Source: Rhizobium sp. Q54 (GTDB lineage: Bacteria > Bacteroidota > Bacteroidia > Flavobacteriales > Flavobacteriaceae). Taken from it: DNA of 64,000 nt. The stretch spans positions 1 through 64,000 of the forward strand of contig CALQAH020000004.1 in NCBI GenBank assembly GCA_943328505.2, given 5' to 3'. The notes below the pieces were generated by a model. The model was not told the origin of the DNA. It made no database searches and saw nothing but the letters and a program-made list of their open reading frames with translations. The position numbers and the translations under genes were made by a program. Of this stretch, positions 56,977 through 63,387 are shown one piece after another; position 1 is the first letter of the stretch; every line of letters starts with the position of its first letter.

Positions 56977-57933
56977 CTAAAAAACTTCCAAAGCAATTGC
57001 TTTAATGTTCTCTGCTTTTCCCATCGAATAATAATGCAAAACAGGAATTCCAGCGGCAACTAATTCTTTGCTTTGTTGTGTACACCATTCAATTCCTATT
57101 TGTTTTACATGGTCATTGTCTTTTGCTTTAACGACAGCCATAATTAAATCGTCAGGTAATTCAATACTGAATCGATGAGGAATTAGATTTAATTGTTTCT
57201 TAGTTGCAATGGGTTTTAATCCTGGAATAATTGGAATAGTAATTCCAGCAGCACGACATTTTGCTACAAAATCAAAGAATTTTTTGTTGTCAAAAAACAT
57301 TTGAGTAATGATATAATCGGCTCCGTTTTTAATTTTTTGTTTTAAAAAGTGAATATCGCTGTCCAAACTTGGTGCTTCCATATGTTTCTCAGGGTAACCT
57401 GCAACTCCAATACAGAAATTAGTACAAGCTGAATTCTGTAGATCTTCGTCAAGATAAATCCCGTTATTTAAATTATTGATTTGTAAAACCAAATCGGTTG
57501 CGTATTCATTTCCGTCTTTTTCGGGTTTGAAATAGGTCTCGTTTTTCATTGCATCACCACGAAGCGCCACTACATTGTCGATTCCAAGAAAATCCAAATC
57601 GATTAATAAATTTTCGGTATCTTCTTTCGTAAAACCACCACAAAGGATATGAGGAATGGCATCAACAGAATATTTATTTTGAATTCCAGCACAAATCCCA
57701 ACTGTTCCAGGGCGTTTTTTTACTACTTTTTTCTGTAATAATCCGCTGGGTAATTCTTTAAATTCATACTCTTCACGATGATAGGTTACATCAATAAAGG
57801 GTGGCTTGAATTCCATCAACGGATCAATACTGTCAAAAATAGATTGAATATTTTGACCTTTTAAAGGTGGTAGTATTTCAAAAGAAAATAATGGTTTACC
57901 GTTGGCGTTATCTATATGTTGTGTTACTTTCAT
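56977..57933 (-). CDS. metF: 5,10-methylenetetrahydrofolate reductase
   Basis: FAD enzyme that makes 5-methyltetrahydrofolate, the methyl donor for MetH. The 318 residues are the usual bacterial length. FSFEILPPLKG at the start, DVTYHREEYEF, GICAGIQNK, VVALRGDAM and ADYIITQMFFDNKKF (about residues 217-231) are family landmarks. It is the third gene of metH(N)-metH(C)-metF, 61 bases after the second, so all three should be controlled by the SAM riboswitch at 61755-61856. Confidence 0.95.
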   Translation of the reverse strand: MKVTQHIDNANGKPLFSFEILPPLKGQNIQSIFDSIDPLMEFKPPFIDVTYHREEYEFKELPSGLLQKKVVKKRPGTVGICAGIQNKYSVDAIPHILCGGFTKEDTENLLIDLDFLGIDNVVALRGDAMKNETYFKPEKDGNEYATDLVLQINNLNNGIYLDEDLQNSACTNFCIGVAGYPEKHMEAPSLDSDIHFLKQKIKNGADYIITQMFFDNKKFFDFVAKCRAAGITIPIIPGLKPIATKKQLNLIPHRFSIELPDDLIMAVVKAKDNDHVKQIGIEWCTQQSKELVAAGIPVLHYYSMGKAENIKAIALEVF

Positions 57934-57994: not shown

Positions 57995-60664
57995 TTAATC
58001 TGCTATATTTGGTGAAAGCCATTTTGTGGCGGTTTCTGTCGAGACACCTCTTCTCTTGGCGTAATCTATTACTTGATCTTCTTTAATTTTTCCCAATCCA
58101 AAATATTTACTTTCAGGATTAGCAAAATAATATCCCGAAACCGATGATGCTGGCCACATGGCCATACTTTCGGTTAAGGTGACTCCAATTTCTTGTTCTA
58201 CATTTAAGAGTTTCCATATTGTTGGTTTTTCTAAATGATCCGGGCAAGCTGGATAACCTGGTGCAGGACGAATTCCTTTATACTCTTCATTAATTAAATC
58301 TTGATTGGATAAAGTTTCATCGCAAGCATATCCCCAAATTTCCTTTCGCACTTTTAAATGCAAATATTCTGCAAATGCTTCCGCCAATCTGTCGCCTAGT
58401 GCTTTGACTAAAATGGAATTGTAATCATCCAGTTGTCTTTCATATTCGGTAGCTTTTTCATCCACTCCAAAACCTGTTGTTACACAAAAGCATCCAAAAT
58501 AATCCTGTTTGCCACTATCTTTTGGAGCGATAAAATCAGCTAAAGCAATGTTGGGTGCGCCAGCTGTTTTTTGTGATTGTTGTCTTAAAGTTAAAAACTT
58601 GACTATTTCTTTTCCTCCAATATCTAAAACTTGAATATCATCGTCATTTACTGTATTTGCTGGAAAAATTCCAAGAATTCCTTTGGCAGTTAACCACTTT
58701 TCTGAAACGATTTGGGTTAACATTTGTTTCGCATCTGCAAATAATGAAGTGGCTTGTTCGCCTACAACCTCATCGGTTAAAATCGCTGGGTATTTTCCGT
58801 ACAATTCCCAGGAACTAAAAAACGGTGTCCAATCGATGAAATCAACTAATTCGGATAATTCAACATGGATTGTTTTGACTCCAATGAAATTAGGTTGTAC
58901 TGGATTGAATTCATTCCAATTTAACTGTAACTTATTTTTTCGAGCGTCTTCAATGGATAAATAATTTTTATCGCGACTTCGGTTTAAATAGCCTTCTCTT
59001 AATTTATCATATTCTTCACGAATGGCTTTAACATAACCTACTTTTGTTTCATTTTGCAATAAATTACTTGCTACGGTTACTGCTCTGGAAGCATCGTTTA
59101 CGTGCACTACAGTTTCTTTATATTCGGGTGCAATTTTTACAGCGGTATGTGCACGAGAGGTTGTTGCACCTCCAATCATAATTGGAATTTTTATATTTAA
59201 TTTATCCATTTCTTTAGCGAGATACACCATTTCATCAAGAGATGGGGTGATCAATCCGCTTAAACCAATAATGTCCACATTATGTTCGATCGCTGCTTGA
59301 ATAATTTTTTCAGGTGGCACCATGACGCCCAAATCGATGATTTCGAAATTATTACAACCCAAAACAACGGCAACAATATTTTTACCAATATCATGTACAT
59401 CTCCTTTTACAGTTGCCATCAAGACTTTTCCAGCCGATGACGATTTTCCATCTTTCTGGGCTTCGATAAATGGAAGTAAATACGCCACTGCTTTTTTCAT
59501 TACGCGTGCTGATTTTACGACTTGTGGTAAAAACATTTTTCCGGAACCAAATAAATCACCAACAACATTCATTCCTGCCATCAAATTAATTTCGATAACA
59601 TCAATCGCTTTTTCAGAGGCAGCTCTGGCTTCTTCCACATCAATTTCGATGAATTCGTCAATTCCTTTTACAAGCGAATGTGTTAATCGGTCTTGAACCG
59701 AATCGTTTCGCCACTCTTGTATTGCTTTTTCATTGGCTTTGAAATCGCCTTTAAAACTTTCGGCTAAATCCAATAATCTTTCTGTGGCATCTTCTCTTCT
59801 ATTGAGCAAAACATCTTCAACATGTTCTAGTAATGTTTTATCAATTTCATCATAAATCTCGAGCATTTCTGGATTTACGATTCCCATGGTCATTCCGTTT
59901 TGAATAGCATGAAATAGAAATGCCGAATGCATTGCTTCCCGGACTTTGTCATTTCCTCTAAACGAAAATGAAACGTTACTCACGCCTCCAGAAATATTGG
60001 CATAAGGCAGGTTTTCTCTAATCCATTTAGTGGCTCTAAAGAAATCCAATGCGTTTAATTTATGTTCGTCCATTCCAGTAGCTACAGGAAAAATATTGGG
60101 ATCGAAAATAATATCTTCGGCAGCAAAATGAACTTCATTTACTAAAATGTCATAACTTCTTTTACAAATTTCGATGCGTCTGTCGTAATTGTCCGCTTGT
60201 CCATATTCATCGAAAGCCATCACAATCACAGCAGCACCATAGCGCTTAATTAATTTGGCATGATGAATAAATGCAGCTTCGCCTTCTTTTAAAGATATAG
60301 AATTGACAACTGCTTTTCCCTGAACCACTTTTAATCCGGCTTCGATGATCTCCCATTTGGAACTATCGATCATTACCGGAACTCTTGCAATATCGGGTTC
60401 AGCGGCAATAAGATTTAAGAATTTAGTCATAGCATAAACACCATCCAGCATTCCTTCATCCATATTGACATCGATGATTTGTGCGCCACCTTCAACTTGA
60501 TCTCGAGCTACCGAAAGCGCCTCATCGTATTTCTCTTCTTTGATTAATCGAAGAAATTTACGGGAACCTGTTACGTTAGTTCTTTCGCCAACATTTATAA
60601 AATTAGTTTCGGGAGTAACAATTAAAGGCTCTAAACCTGATAGCTTTAAATATTTTGTATTCAC
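57995..60664 (-). CDS. metH: Methionine synthase, C-terminal part (folate, B12 and activation domains)
   Basis: An 889-residue protein carrying three of the four MetH modules. The pterin-binding domain opens with [17 protein letters not shown] (about residues 21-37). The cobalamin domain has the B12 ligand H424 in DVHDIGKNI. The activation domain has ELYGKYPAI (about 632-640) and [12 protein letters not shown]. It must work with the separate homocysteine-binding protein encoded 2 bases upstream. A split MetH is normal for Flavobacteriia. It confirms dependence on B12, as no metE is present here. Confidence 0.95.
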
Positions 60665-60666
60665 TA

Positions 60667-61656
60667 TTATATTGTTTCTAAAATTTGTCTTGGTTTAAAT
60701 TGAACTGCTATCTCAGCAATGGCTTTGATGTGATCAGGAGTTGTACCGCAACATCCACCAATAATATTTATTAAATTATCTTGTAAATACTCTTTGATAA
60801 GCGCTTGCATTTCTTCGGGTGTTTGATCGTATTGACCAAATGCATTGGGTAATCCAGCATTGGGATGCGCCGAAATATTTAATTGTGTATTCATTGCTAA
60901 ACGACTTAAATACGGTTTCAATTGATCGGCACCAAGGGCACAATTAAATCCGATGCTTAACAAATGAATATGTGAAATAGATATTAAAAACGCTTCAACG
61001 GTTTGACCAGAAAGCGTTCTTCCGGAAGCATCTGTAATAGTTCCTGAAACCATTATTGGAATAGTAATATTGCGTTCTTCTTTTACTTCTTCGATTGCGA
61101 ATAAAGCCGCTTTAGCATTTAAGGTGTCAAAAATGGTTTCGACTAAAAGCACATCGCAACCGCCATCGATTAAGGCTTCAACTTGTTGTTTGTAGGCAAT
61201 TCGCAAGTCGTCAAAAGTAACGGCACGAAAACCAGGATCGTTAACATCGGGTGACATACTTGCGGTTCGATTGGTTGGTCCAATAGAACCTGCTACAAAT
61301 CTTGGTCTGTCAGTAAACTCATTGGCTACTTCACGAGCAATTTTTGCTGATTCATAGTTGAGTTCATAGACTAAATCTTCGAGATGATAATCTGCCATTC
61401 CAATGGTTGTGCCCGAGAAAGTATTGGTTTCTACAATATCGGCACCCGCTTGAAAATATAAGCGGTGGACTTGTTTTACAGCTTCGGGTTGTGTGATAGA
61501 AAGCAAGTCGTTGTTGCCTTTTAACGGATGTGGAAAATCCTTGAAACGTTCTCCACGAAAATCTTCTTCTGAGAAGTTGTTACGTTGTAACATGGTTCCC
61601 ATAGCTCCGTCGAGCACGAGAATTCTTTCTTGTATTGCTTTTTCTATTTTTGACAT
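60667..61656 (-). CDS. metH: Methionine synthase, homocysteine-binding subunit
   Basis: A 329-residue homocysteine S-methyltransferase barrel, equal to the first domain of MetH. Zinc ligands are in GFNCALG (about C237) and [15 protein letters not shown] (about residues 303-317). [19 protein letters not shown] near the start is classic. The stop is 2 bases before the start of the C-terminal part, so the two are translated together. The upstream leader holds an S-box riboswitch and hairpin options that should shut expression when SAM is high. Confidence 0.95.
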
Positions 61657-61670
61657 AACATAAAAATGAT

Positions 61671-61719
61671 AAATCCTTAAATTGGGATTTGAATTTAAAA
61701 AATATCGAAAATGTTATCA
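61671..61719 (-). promoter_or_regulatory. Expression platform of the metH SAM-I riboswitch
   Basis: TGATAAC (complement of 61713-61719) can pair with GTTATCA at the aptamer's 5' end (complement of 61850-61856) and so compete with the P1 stem. Closer to the gene, AAATCC and GGATTT (61671-61690) form a 6-bp hairpin ending 14 bases before the metH ATG. These could form the switching elements; which one is used cannot be told by eye. Confidence 0.45.
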
Positions 61720-61754
61720 AGAAATAGAGAGAAATACAAGCGATGTACTTCTTT

Positions 61755-61856
61755 GTTATCTATCCAAAAATATATTTGGTAGAATGTAGCACCTTCTTTA
61801 AAGATAAAGGGTTGCTAAGGTTTCATCGGGTCTTTCCCTCCGCCTTTCGTGATAAC
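61755..61856 (-). ncRNA. SAM-I (S-box) riboswitch upstream of metH
   Basis: Read on the minus strand. P1 is GTTATC (61851-61856) with GATAAC (61755-61760). Core segments follow in the right order: GGCGGAGGGA, then GACCCGATGAAACC and TTAGCAACC (the P2/kink-turn and P3 region), then AAGGTGCTACATTCTACC (J3/4-P4 signature). These are the conserved stretches of the S-box aptamer. SAM binding normally turns off methionine synthesis genes, which fits the metH-metF operon downstream. Confidence 0.93.
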
Positions 61857-61879
61857 TTTCAATAAAAATATGAACGGTG

Positions 61880-61910
61880 CAAAGTAATGACATAGAATTG
61901 ATTTTTGCAA
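61880..61910 (-). promoter_or_regulatory. Promoter of the metH-metF operon
   Basis: On the minus strand TTACTTTG (61880-61887), one base off TAnnTTTG, is preceded by TTG (61908-61910) with a 20-base spacer. The expected transcript start is just ahead of the aptamer. Confidence 0.55.
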
Positions 61911-61971
61911 GACTTTAAAAGAAAAATATCGATATCGTTGAAGTAAGTTTTTAAAAAAAACAAAAATTAAT

Positions 61972-62000
61972 TTGGTATTCCATTTGAATTCATACCTTTG
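61972..62000 (+). promoter_or_regulatory. metK promoter
   Basis: TTG (61972-61974) and TACCTTTG (61993-62000) with an 18-base spacer. The transcript start, about 7 bases on, is immediately ahead of the candidate SAM-II aptamer. Confidence 0.7.
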
Positions 62001-62011
62001 CCCACGAAAAT

Positions 62012-62066
62012 AAAAAGAGGAAAAATTTGAACTGATTGCAACCTCATTAAAAAAATGCTAAAGCAG
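62012..62066 (+). ncRNA. Candidate SAM-II riboswitch upstream of metK
   Basis: P1 is GAGG (62017-62020) with CCTC (62042-62045). The enclosed loop reads AATTTGAACTGATTGCAA, and the 3' segment reads AAATGCTAAAGCAG (62053-62066). ATTTGA, GATTGCA and GCTAAA are the conserved words of the SAM-II pseudoknot, and CTG in the loop (62032-62034) can pair with CAG (62064-62066). The P1 stem is short, which lowers confidence. The downstream gene makes SAM, as expected for a SAM sensor. Confidence 0.72.
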
Positions 62067-62074
62067 AAATACTT

Positions 62075-62102
62075 CTTTAGCTTTCATCGCAATCCTCTTT
62101 TT
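62075..62102 (+). promoter_or_regulatory. Expression platform between the SAM-II candidate and metK
   Basis: CTTTAGC (62075-62081) is complementary to GCTAAAG (62057-62063) of the aptamer core. TCCTCTTTTT (62093-62102) is the exact complement of AAAAAGAGGA (62012-62021), which includes the P1 5' strand. GCAATC (62089-62094) complements GATTGC (62034-62039). Both anti-aptamer pairings would destroy the SAM-bound fold, giving a mutually exclusive switch. Confidence 0.6.
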
Positions 62103-62136: not shown

Positions 62137-63387
62137 ATGGCTTATTTATTTACGTCGGAGTCAGTGAGTGAAGGACATCCAGACAAAGTTGCAGACCAAA
62201 TTTCAGATGCATTGATTGATAATTTTTTAGCATTTGATGCGGATTCTAAAGTAGCATGCGAAACCTTGGTTACTACGGGTCAAGTAATTTTGGCTGGAGA
62301 AGTAAAATCTAGCACCTATCTTGATGTACAATCTATTGCAAGAGAGGTAATCAGAAAGATTGGATATACTAAAAGTGAGTATATGTTTGAAGCTGATTCT
62401 TGTGGTGTTCTATCTGCAATTCACGAACAATCAGCTGACATTAATCAAGGAGTTGATAGAGCAAGTAAAGAAGAACAAGGTGCTGGTGATCAAGGAATGA
62501 TGTTTGGTTACGCTACTAATGAAACTGAAAATTACATGCCTTTAGCATTAGATTTGTCTCATGCTTTATTGATTGAATTGGCCAATTTGAGAAGAGAAAA
62601 CAACGAAATTAAATATTTGCGTCCAGATGCCAAGTCACAAGTTACTTTAGAATATTCGGATGATAATAAACCACAACGAATTGATGCCATTGTAATTTCT
62701 ACACAACATGATGATTTTGCTGCTGAAGCAGAAATGTTAGCTAAAATTAAAAGTGATTTAGTTGGTATTTTGATTCCAAGAATCAAAGCAAAATATCCTC
62801 AATATGCTCATTTATTTAATGATCAAATCACGTATCACATTAATCCTACTGGCAAATTTGTAATTGGTGGACCTCACGGCGATACAGGATTAACAGGAAG
62901 AAAGATTATTGTGGATACTTATGGTGGAAAAGGCGCCCATGGTGGTGGAGCATTCTCTGGAAAAGACCCAAGTAAAGTCGATAGAAGTGCTGCTTATGCT
63001 ACACGTCATATTGCTAAAAATTTAGTAGCTGCAGGATTGTGTGATGAAATTTTAGTTCAAGTTTCTTATGCGATTGGAGTTGCAAAACCTACGTCAATCA
63101 ATGTAGTAACTTATGGTACTTCAAAAGTGAATTTGACAGATGGAGAAATTAGTACTAAAGTAGAAGCAATTTTTGATATGCGTCCTTATTTTATTGAACA
63201 ACGTTTGAAATTAAGAAACCCTATTTACAGCGAAACTGCTGCTTATGGTCATATGGGAAGAAAATCGGAAACGGTTACTAAAACTTTTCAATTGCCAAAT
63301 GGCGCACCAAAAACAATGACAGTAGAGCTTTTTACATGGGAGAAATTGGATTATGTTGATAAGGTAAAAGCTGCTTTTGGTTTATAA
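62137..63387 (+). CDS. metK: S-adenosylmethionine synthetase
   Basis: Makes SAM from methionine and ATP. At 416 residues it is full length. [20 protein letters not shown] is at residues 5-24. [13 protein letters not shown] (about 116-128), [20 protein letters not shown] (about 230-249) and [19 protein letters not shown] (about 268-286) are the classic active-site segments. It is divergent from the metH operon and has its own promoter, a candidate SAM-II riboswitch and a terminator, so it is a single-gene unit. Confidence 0.98.

Follow-up and report, generated by a model that had tools for sequence, protein, structure and literature searches.

The intergenic region between metH and metK in the 64 kb stretch of DNA analysed here (the window) carries two predicted SAM riboswitches of different classes, SAM-I and SAM-II long loop, both of which sequence and structure models mark as bona fide. 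They are divergent and each precedes an operon of the methionine pathway, as the first-pass annotation had proposed, and the same layout occurs in some relatives. Both RNAs are probably SAM off switches: when SAM is plentiful, SAM-I would shut metH-metF by pairing a leader strand with the metH start region, and SAM-II long loop would shut metK by another readout, perhaps at the RNA level. The first-pass annotation had suggested that the two sensors might differ in affinity or kinetics; a more specific contrast emerges here, in that their readouts seem to differ.

Scanning the entire window against Rfam returned two gathering-level matches, both in the metH-metK gap and none elsewhere in the 64 kb, and searches of the 2.54 Mb genome gave one match per class (one of these searches scored 150 of its 2663 first-look candidates). 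On the plus side the gap is flanked by metK, the SAM synthetase gene (62137-63387, plus strand; Pfam PF00438, PF02772 and PF02773), and on the other by metH and metF, the latter encoding methylenetetrahydrofolate reductase (56977-57933, minus strand; PF02219); the domains agree with the flanking genes named previously, metH-metF on the minus and metK on the plus strand. The metH gene (57995-61656, minus strand) is split into two adjoining frames, separated by 2 nt should the second begin at GTG 60664, which encode a homocysteine S-methyltransferase protein (part 1, 60667-61656; PF02574) and a protein with the pterin, B12 and activation domains (part 2, 57995-60664; PF00809, PF02607, PF02310 and PF02965).

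The S-box (SAM-I) aptamer of the metH leader (61753-61858, minus strand) matches RF00162 over the full model (positions 1-108 of 108) with 81.5 bits against a cut-off of 44.4 (E 1.2e-17), which bears out the S-box read on this strand of the gap. It reaches 111.9 bits with our own covariance model, R1, although it is itself one of the 18 rows on which R1 was trained. In the formed aptamer, the P1 5′ strand GUUAUCA (61850-61856, minus strand) pairs with the P1 3′ strand AGAUAAC (61755-61761, minus strand). The P2 loop is one base shorter than in 16 of the 17 other aligned rows. At the putative pseudoknot between the P2 loop and J3/4, most rows of the alignment, read by eye, have UAG opposite CUA; the window has AAG, with two pairs left. 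Judged by its sequence, this RNA is a predicted SAM sensor, with the same aptamer sequence and structure as RF00162 over the full model and the same place before met genes.

The plus-strand aptamer of the metK leader (62011-62071) had been put forward as SAM-II under the model RF00521. The class stands, since the segment matches the SAM-II long-loop model RF01726 over its full length (positions 1-60 of 60; 68.6 bits, cut-off 44, E 4e-11), whereas RF00521 is rejected as its family (12.6 bits, cut-off 36). The strands CUG..GCA and UGC..CAG, which we take to be those of the P2 H-type pseudoknot, can be read in the sequence; by eye they are largely invariant in relatives and therefore provide no covariation. 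This RNA is likewise a predicted SAM sensor, and it shows no aptamer difference from RF01726 and lies, as is known for that class, upstream of metK. The two models are 152 nt apart, close to the ~155 claimed, and lie on opposite strands, which rules out a tandem riboswitch with both aptamers in one transcript. Among Flavobacterium SAM-II loci, L110, L112, L117 and L137-L157 carry, by eye, an additional hairpin-like insert, or two of them, in the segment from CCUC to the A-rich run that precedes UGCUAAA.

A Bacteroidetes-type promoter had been assigned to each aptamer, which holds for metK and only partly for metH. The metK -7 element TACCTTTG (61993-62000, plus strand) is a perfect TAHHTTTG, the -7 consensus, whereas the -7-like element of metH, TTACTTTG (61887-61880, minus strand; by eye), departs from it at a single base, where hardly any variation is described (PMC6847099). 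TAHHTTTG lies upstream of SAM-II aptamers in 122 of 123 genus loci (from the best 130 of 191) and 60 of 64 family loci, against a background of 3.8% per 49-mer. For the 78 SAM-I matches of the genus, same-genome copies included, the upstream sequence has the exact motif in 25 and loosened forms, for which there is no background, in 70.

Coexistence of SAM-I and SAM-II is the rule in this lineage. Of the 199 genomes in the Flavobacterium sample, 170 have SAM-I and 191 SAM-II long loop over the cut-off; the family sample gives 234 and 275 of 299, respectively. At E 0.001, and with tables merged by hand, both classes are present in ~168 of the 199 genomes of the genus and ~228 of the 299 of the family, so that the pairing of classes is not unusual for the lineage, contrary to what had been supposed. 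Earlier reports from Bacteroidetes point the same way: a SAM-II element was reported from the Bacteroides group already in 2005 (PMC1273637), and SAM-II long loop was tabulated for Bacteroidetes and marine samples in 2010 (PMC2864571). A 2007 survey, however, had found SAM-I and SAM-II together in no species (PMC2258182). In the F. psychrophilum transcriptome, five Rfam cis-regulatory RNAs are expressed, and SAM riboswitches are not named in the portion of the main text considered (PMC9723704). Across the phylum, SAM-II precedes metK in 48 of 80 named loci, as judged by an upstream pattern match, not a model.

The tight divergent SAM-I/SAM-II pair is a minority layout in the genus and is also found in other genera. 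SAM-I in relatives was detected with the covariance model, two regular expressions being too strict. The genus SAM-II loci are the best 130 of 191, of which 125 matched the SAM-II pattern, 123 of them with 600 nt or more of upstream sequence; loci where the pattern failed were left out (5 of 130 in the genus, 26 of 90 in the family), and the family metK set consists of the 64 remaining loci minus two that precede another gene. SAM-I lies within 340 nt of SAM-II in 15 of the 123 genus loci (from the best 130 of 191), and 13 of these pairs lead to metH and one (L056) to a metX-like gene, L057 being the remaining pair. All 48 distinct SAM-I aptamers upstream in these genus loci are on the opposite strand; their larger distances from SAM-II are no fair sample, because some regions were widened where SAM-I was listed nearby. 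In the family, 12 of 90 loci have a gap of at most 320 nt, which is no fair frequency, as adjacency in five (L233, L250-L253) was known before selection. Nine of these gaps were obtained by script, with 129-142 nt in eight loci and 313 nt in L222, and three by arithmetic from coordinates (L234, 123 nt; L252, 136 nt; L261, 138 nt). The same layout, with a 121-nt gap, is found in a named Bacteroidia MAG (L350). By eye, the SAM-I partner genes include metH, metX-type and cystathionine gamma-synthase type genes and an OsmC-like gene; thus, the layout recurs with different partners. The tight gap is about the length that two divergent promoters would need.

Some copies of both classes precede other genes. 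Two small flavobacterial genomes have two SAM-II copies each, and L164:1639-2070 and L227:1486-1821 are SAM-II copies before a gene that is presumably QueF-like, judging by its motifs. The SAM-I copies L007, L009-L011, L013, L020, L022, L023, L026-L028 and L030, from Flavobacterium genomes of 5.0-6.2 Mb, begin, in the aptamers listed, with CUUAUCCAGAAAGACUGAGGG, not GUUAUCACGAAAGG, and by eye the products of the genes behind them start like secreted or outer-membrane proteins.

In both leaders of the window, the strand downstream of the aptamer complements the 5′ side of its own aptamer, so that the aptamer and anti-aptamer folds would be mutually exclusive. In the metH leader, UUUCUUGAUAAC complements the P1 strand GUUAUCA plus neighbouring bases. 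Comparison of free and aptamer-enforced folds points to a toggling strand, CUAUUUCUUGAUAACAU (61711-61727, minus strand), which complements either the aptamer 5′ half or the metH start region AUGUUAUGUCAAAAAUAG (61644-61661, minus strand; start codon 61656-61654), with which it pairs in the aptamer-enforced fold. UUUAUCA (61667-61673, minus strand) mimics the P1 5′ strand almost like a copy and lies some 11-17 nt ahead of the AUG of metH. The free fold of this leader has -52.6 kcal/mol and the aptamer-enforced fold -45.2, computed without SAM or the pseudoknot; the ligand would thus have to pay ~7 kcal/mol, a plausible sum. In the metK leader, CUUUAGC, GCAAUC and UCCUCUUUUU stand in nested order opposite GCUAAAG, GAUUGC and AAAAAGAGGA of the aptamer. 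CUUUAGC (62075-62081, plus strand) complements GCUAAAG (62057-62063) of the pseudoknot 3′ strand and is seen by eye in many relatives, as are blocks related to GCAAUCCUCUUUUU (62089-62102, plus strand), which complements GAUUGC (62034-62039) and AAAAAGAGGA (62012-62021). The aptamer lies about 55-105 nt upstream of the metK start in relatives.

Across relatives, the duplex of the downstream strand with the aptamer was compared with those of dinucleotide-shuffled strands, and own-species pairing with foreign-species pairing. The mean z in the genus is -3.57 for 20 metH, -3.68 for 14 metX and -2.97 for 123 metK leaders. For 59 metH leaders it is -3.34, with values below -1.5 in 45, and pairing with the own aptamer exceeds that with foreign ones in 46 (p 2e-6). 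The 62 family metK leaders give a mean z of -2.77, with 50 below -1.5, and own exceeds foreign in 44 (p 4e-6). In genus metK, where the aptamer hardly varies, own pairing is not above foreign (55/123, p 0.68). The p values are optimistic and independence is overstated, as species share ancestry.

We propose that, without SAM, the downstream strand of the metH leader would be held by the aptamer 5′ half, leaving the start region freer, and that, with SAM, the aptamer would close and release the strand to pair with the start region. The strand would often target the AUG together with codon 2, or else a P1-strand mimic just upstream, and the pairing would hinder initiation in a phylum without Shine-Dalgarno sequences. 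Bacteroidota naturally lack such sequences (PMC6847099), and by eye no Shine-Dalgarno-like motif is present in the 20 nt before the metH or metK start, so neither leader fits a Shine-Dalgarno-sequestering riboswitch.

Support for start pairing comes from a fold test, adopted after a negative duplex test on 59 leaders, in which the aptamer is omitted and a start codon counts as paired if at least two of its bases pair with the leader. It covered metH leaders of 40-120 nt and other SAM-I leaders (n=15), 40-130 nt long, whose genes start with ATG; 14 TTG-start metX leaders entered only the duplex and accessibility tests. L098, a near-copy of L095, was dropped, and so were second loci from genomes already represented (L016, L019, L025, L004, L005, L006 and L012). 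With the aptamer excluded, the start codon is paired in 52 of 60 metH leaders, compared with 50% of shuffled leaders and 22 of 60 full-length folds; for the other SAM-I leaders, the figures are 15 of 15, 57% and 3 of 15. The mean probability that the metH start codon is unpaired is 0.22, as against 0.42 in shuffled leaders (p 2e-7) and 0.41 in full-length folds (p 3e-7). In the accessibility fold test, it is the full leader that has the freer start region in 19 of 20 metH, 14 of 14 metX and 72 of 123 metK cases. Pairing alone is common, since 15 of 40 long-ORF starts in the window pair with the 50 nt upstream and 20 of 40 with 90 nt. In the window, the probability of an unpaired metH start codon is 0.64 in the full leader, 0.53 with the aptamer excluded and 0.45 in shuffles; the codon is only partly hidden because the A and U of AUG lie in a 2-nt stem bulge.

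Direct duplexes between strand and start gave mixed results. For 20 genus metH leaders, the z is -1.84 and own exceeds foreign in 16 (p 0.0017). For 59 metH leaders, in the short ones of which the split point cut the strand, the z is -0.22 (p 0.55) and own exceeds foreign in 30 (p 0.83), and the own starts of 14 metX leaders are no better than foreign ones (3/14, p 0.17). The own-versus-foreign start test on metH is weakly positive (31/60, p 0.013). The leaders use 57 distinct stems overall, and a frequent solution is UGACAU with AUGUCA, i.e. the start codon and codon 2. GACAT is present in 23 of 60 metH leaders, all with an AUGUC start (23 vs 0), and among those without it 21 have AUGUC and 16 another start (Fisher p 1.5e-4). 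L095 and L091 use bases just before the AUG, CUGAUAAC with GUUAUCAG, and L017 has a 12-nt complement, with UGCUGAUAACAU of the leader opposite codons 1-4, AUGUUAUCAGCA. TATCA within 30 nt before the start is found in 20 of 59 metH leaders, 1 of 185 metK leaders and 8.7% of shuffles.

In an alignment of 22 short metH leaders, the start-codon helix is 97% paired with zero two-sided changes, and three pairs of the preceding hairpin change on both sides. Taken over the whole structure, 53 of 500 shuffles reached three two-sided pairs, five reached the five such cells, three the covariation score and two the 91.2% of paired cells. RNAalifold found no consensus structure for 32 short metH leaders. 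Terminator-like hairpins are absent from all 60 metH leaders and from the window gap, and occur in 3 of 15 other SAM-I leaders. We therefore reject intrinsic termination for metH, and the window is no case of a terminator-type riboswitch, with no intrinsic terminator between aptamer and gene.

The metK leader behaves differently. With the aptamer excluded, its start codon is paired in 42 of 123 genus and 23 of 62 family loci, not above the shuffles (41% and 42%), and in full-length folds in 27 of 123 and 15 of 62. A clamp on the metK start codon received no support in the genus from the duplex, pairing-probability and start-codon fold tests. The genus leader strand has 24.7% C and 7.5% G, compared with 13.5% and 12.4% in 144 control leaders, and its bases not paired with the aptamer have 24.6% C and 5.8% G. 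SAM may release a C/U-rich, G-poor and largely unstructured strand without hiding the start codon. Such a strand would suit Rho loading, and our favoured guess, made with caution, is an RNA-level readout such as Rho-dependent termination or decay.

Terminator-like hairpins are found in 21 of 123 genus metK leaders, or 27 of 123 under looser limits (including L049, L063, L064, L083, L101 and L124). All 27 have a U-rich run, and 25 of them are built with aptamer bases, those of L076 and L135 lying outside; the 25 would form without SAM, which is the wrong logic for an off switch. Termination in the SAM-free state, considered because of these weak hairpins (27/123), is not favoured. In the family, pairing of the leader strand with the bases before the metK start falls below z -1.5 in 13 of 62 loci, with z of -2.9 or lower in L162, L168, L170, L173, L174, L176, L177, L180, L258 and L223; all of these but L223 come from genomes of 1.6-2.2 Mb. 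These nine small-genome loci have a hairpin just before the metK start, in which the stems vary in sequence and the pairing is kept.

A more specific version of the proposal, which we hold only tentatively, unites a start-codon clamp shared by SAM-I leaders of Flavobacteriaceae with a rut-like metK strand for Rho, i.e. two classes acting at two control levels in one 150-bp gap. One strand of the clamp would alternate between two partners, the P1 strand and, at the start codon, a mimic of P1 or a complement, and in some leaders the pairing would extend into the coding sequence. We consider it rather unlikely that both aptamers are ordinary off switches in which the anti-aptamer strand only sets the switching threshold, the metH start codon is not clamped and both leaders act by termination or RNA decay. 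Strong anti-aptamer strands in both leaders, the C-rich, G-poor metK strand, the partly hidden metH start codon of the window and the negative duplex test on 59 metH leaders would all fit such switches; however, start pairing in 52 of 60 metH leaders (50% in shuffles) and in all 15 other SAM-I leaders (57% in shuffles), and the lack of terminator-like hairpins in the 60 metH leaders and the window gap (3 of 15 in other SAM-I leaders), argue against them.

It is improbable that the divergent layout is itself functional, with leaders or promoters interacting through a shared regulator or promoter interference so that methionine and SAM synthesis stay in balance. Gaps of some 110-150 nt do recur in several genera, but only 15 of 123 genus loci (from the best 130 of 191) have a gap of at most 340 nt, two divergent promoters would need about this length anyway, and the SAM-I partners vary by eye (metH, metX type, cystathionine gamma-synthase type). 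Very improbable is a chance match or degenerate relic, with one aptamer no longer functional in this species: the short P2 loop of the window SAM-I, one base below 16 of 17 other rows, is set against two aptamers far over their cut-offs, accompanied by -7 or -7-like elements and anti-aptamer strands.

The proposed strand-start pairing at metH, with another readout at metK, can be compared with described systems. In a review, riboswitch off switches work through terminators or by making the ribosome binding site inaccessible, a site that in SAM-I can be the P1 3′ side, although the same review allows for more varied expression platform structures (PMC2258182). The leader described here differs from these SAM-I platforms, since its strand is predicted to pair with the start codon region and the lineage has no Shine-Dalgarno sequences. 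An anti-aptamer strand in SAM-II long-loop leaders is not described in the portions of the papers considered. The Sinorhizobium metA riboswitch (PMC9373788), which is proteobacterial, shares the SAM-II class and acts on translation at a distance. Tandem bi-mechanism SAM-II/SAM-V pairs, and SAM-II with SAM-I/IV (PMC9481103), likewise combine two sensor classes with possibly different readouts, but they serve one gene in one mRNA, whereas the window pair lies on opposite strands before two operons. In Flavobacterium, start-region structure tunes initiation and mRNA selection was suggested to rely on an accessible AUG (PMC6847099); the theme of start-region structure is shared with that genome-wide study, which in the portion considered does not treat these riboswitches. 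Within the open-licence PMC literature, and in the portions of its papers considered, we found no description of a divergent SAM-I/SAM-II pair or of a start-codon clamp in Bacteroidota SAM-I. The metH start-codon readout looks new, whereas both SAM classes were already known from the lineage.

With the divergent pair, nature provides a setting in which two SAM sensor folds can be compared side by side within one cell. Moreover, a start-codon clamp common to the family, if true, would show how translation can be controlled by a ligand without Shine-Dalgarno sequences, and might provide a design for use in Bacteroidota hosts.
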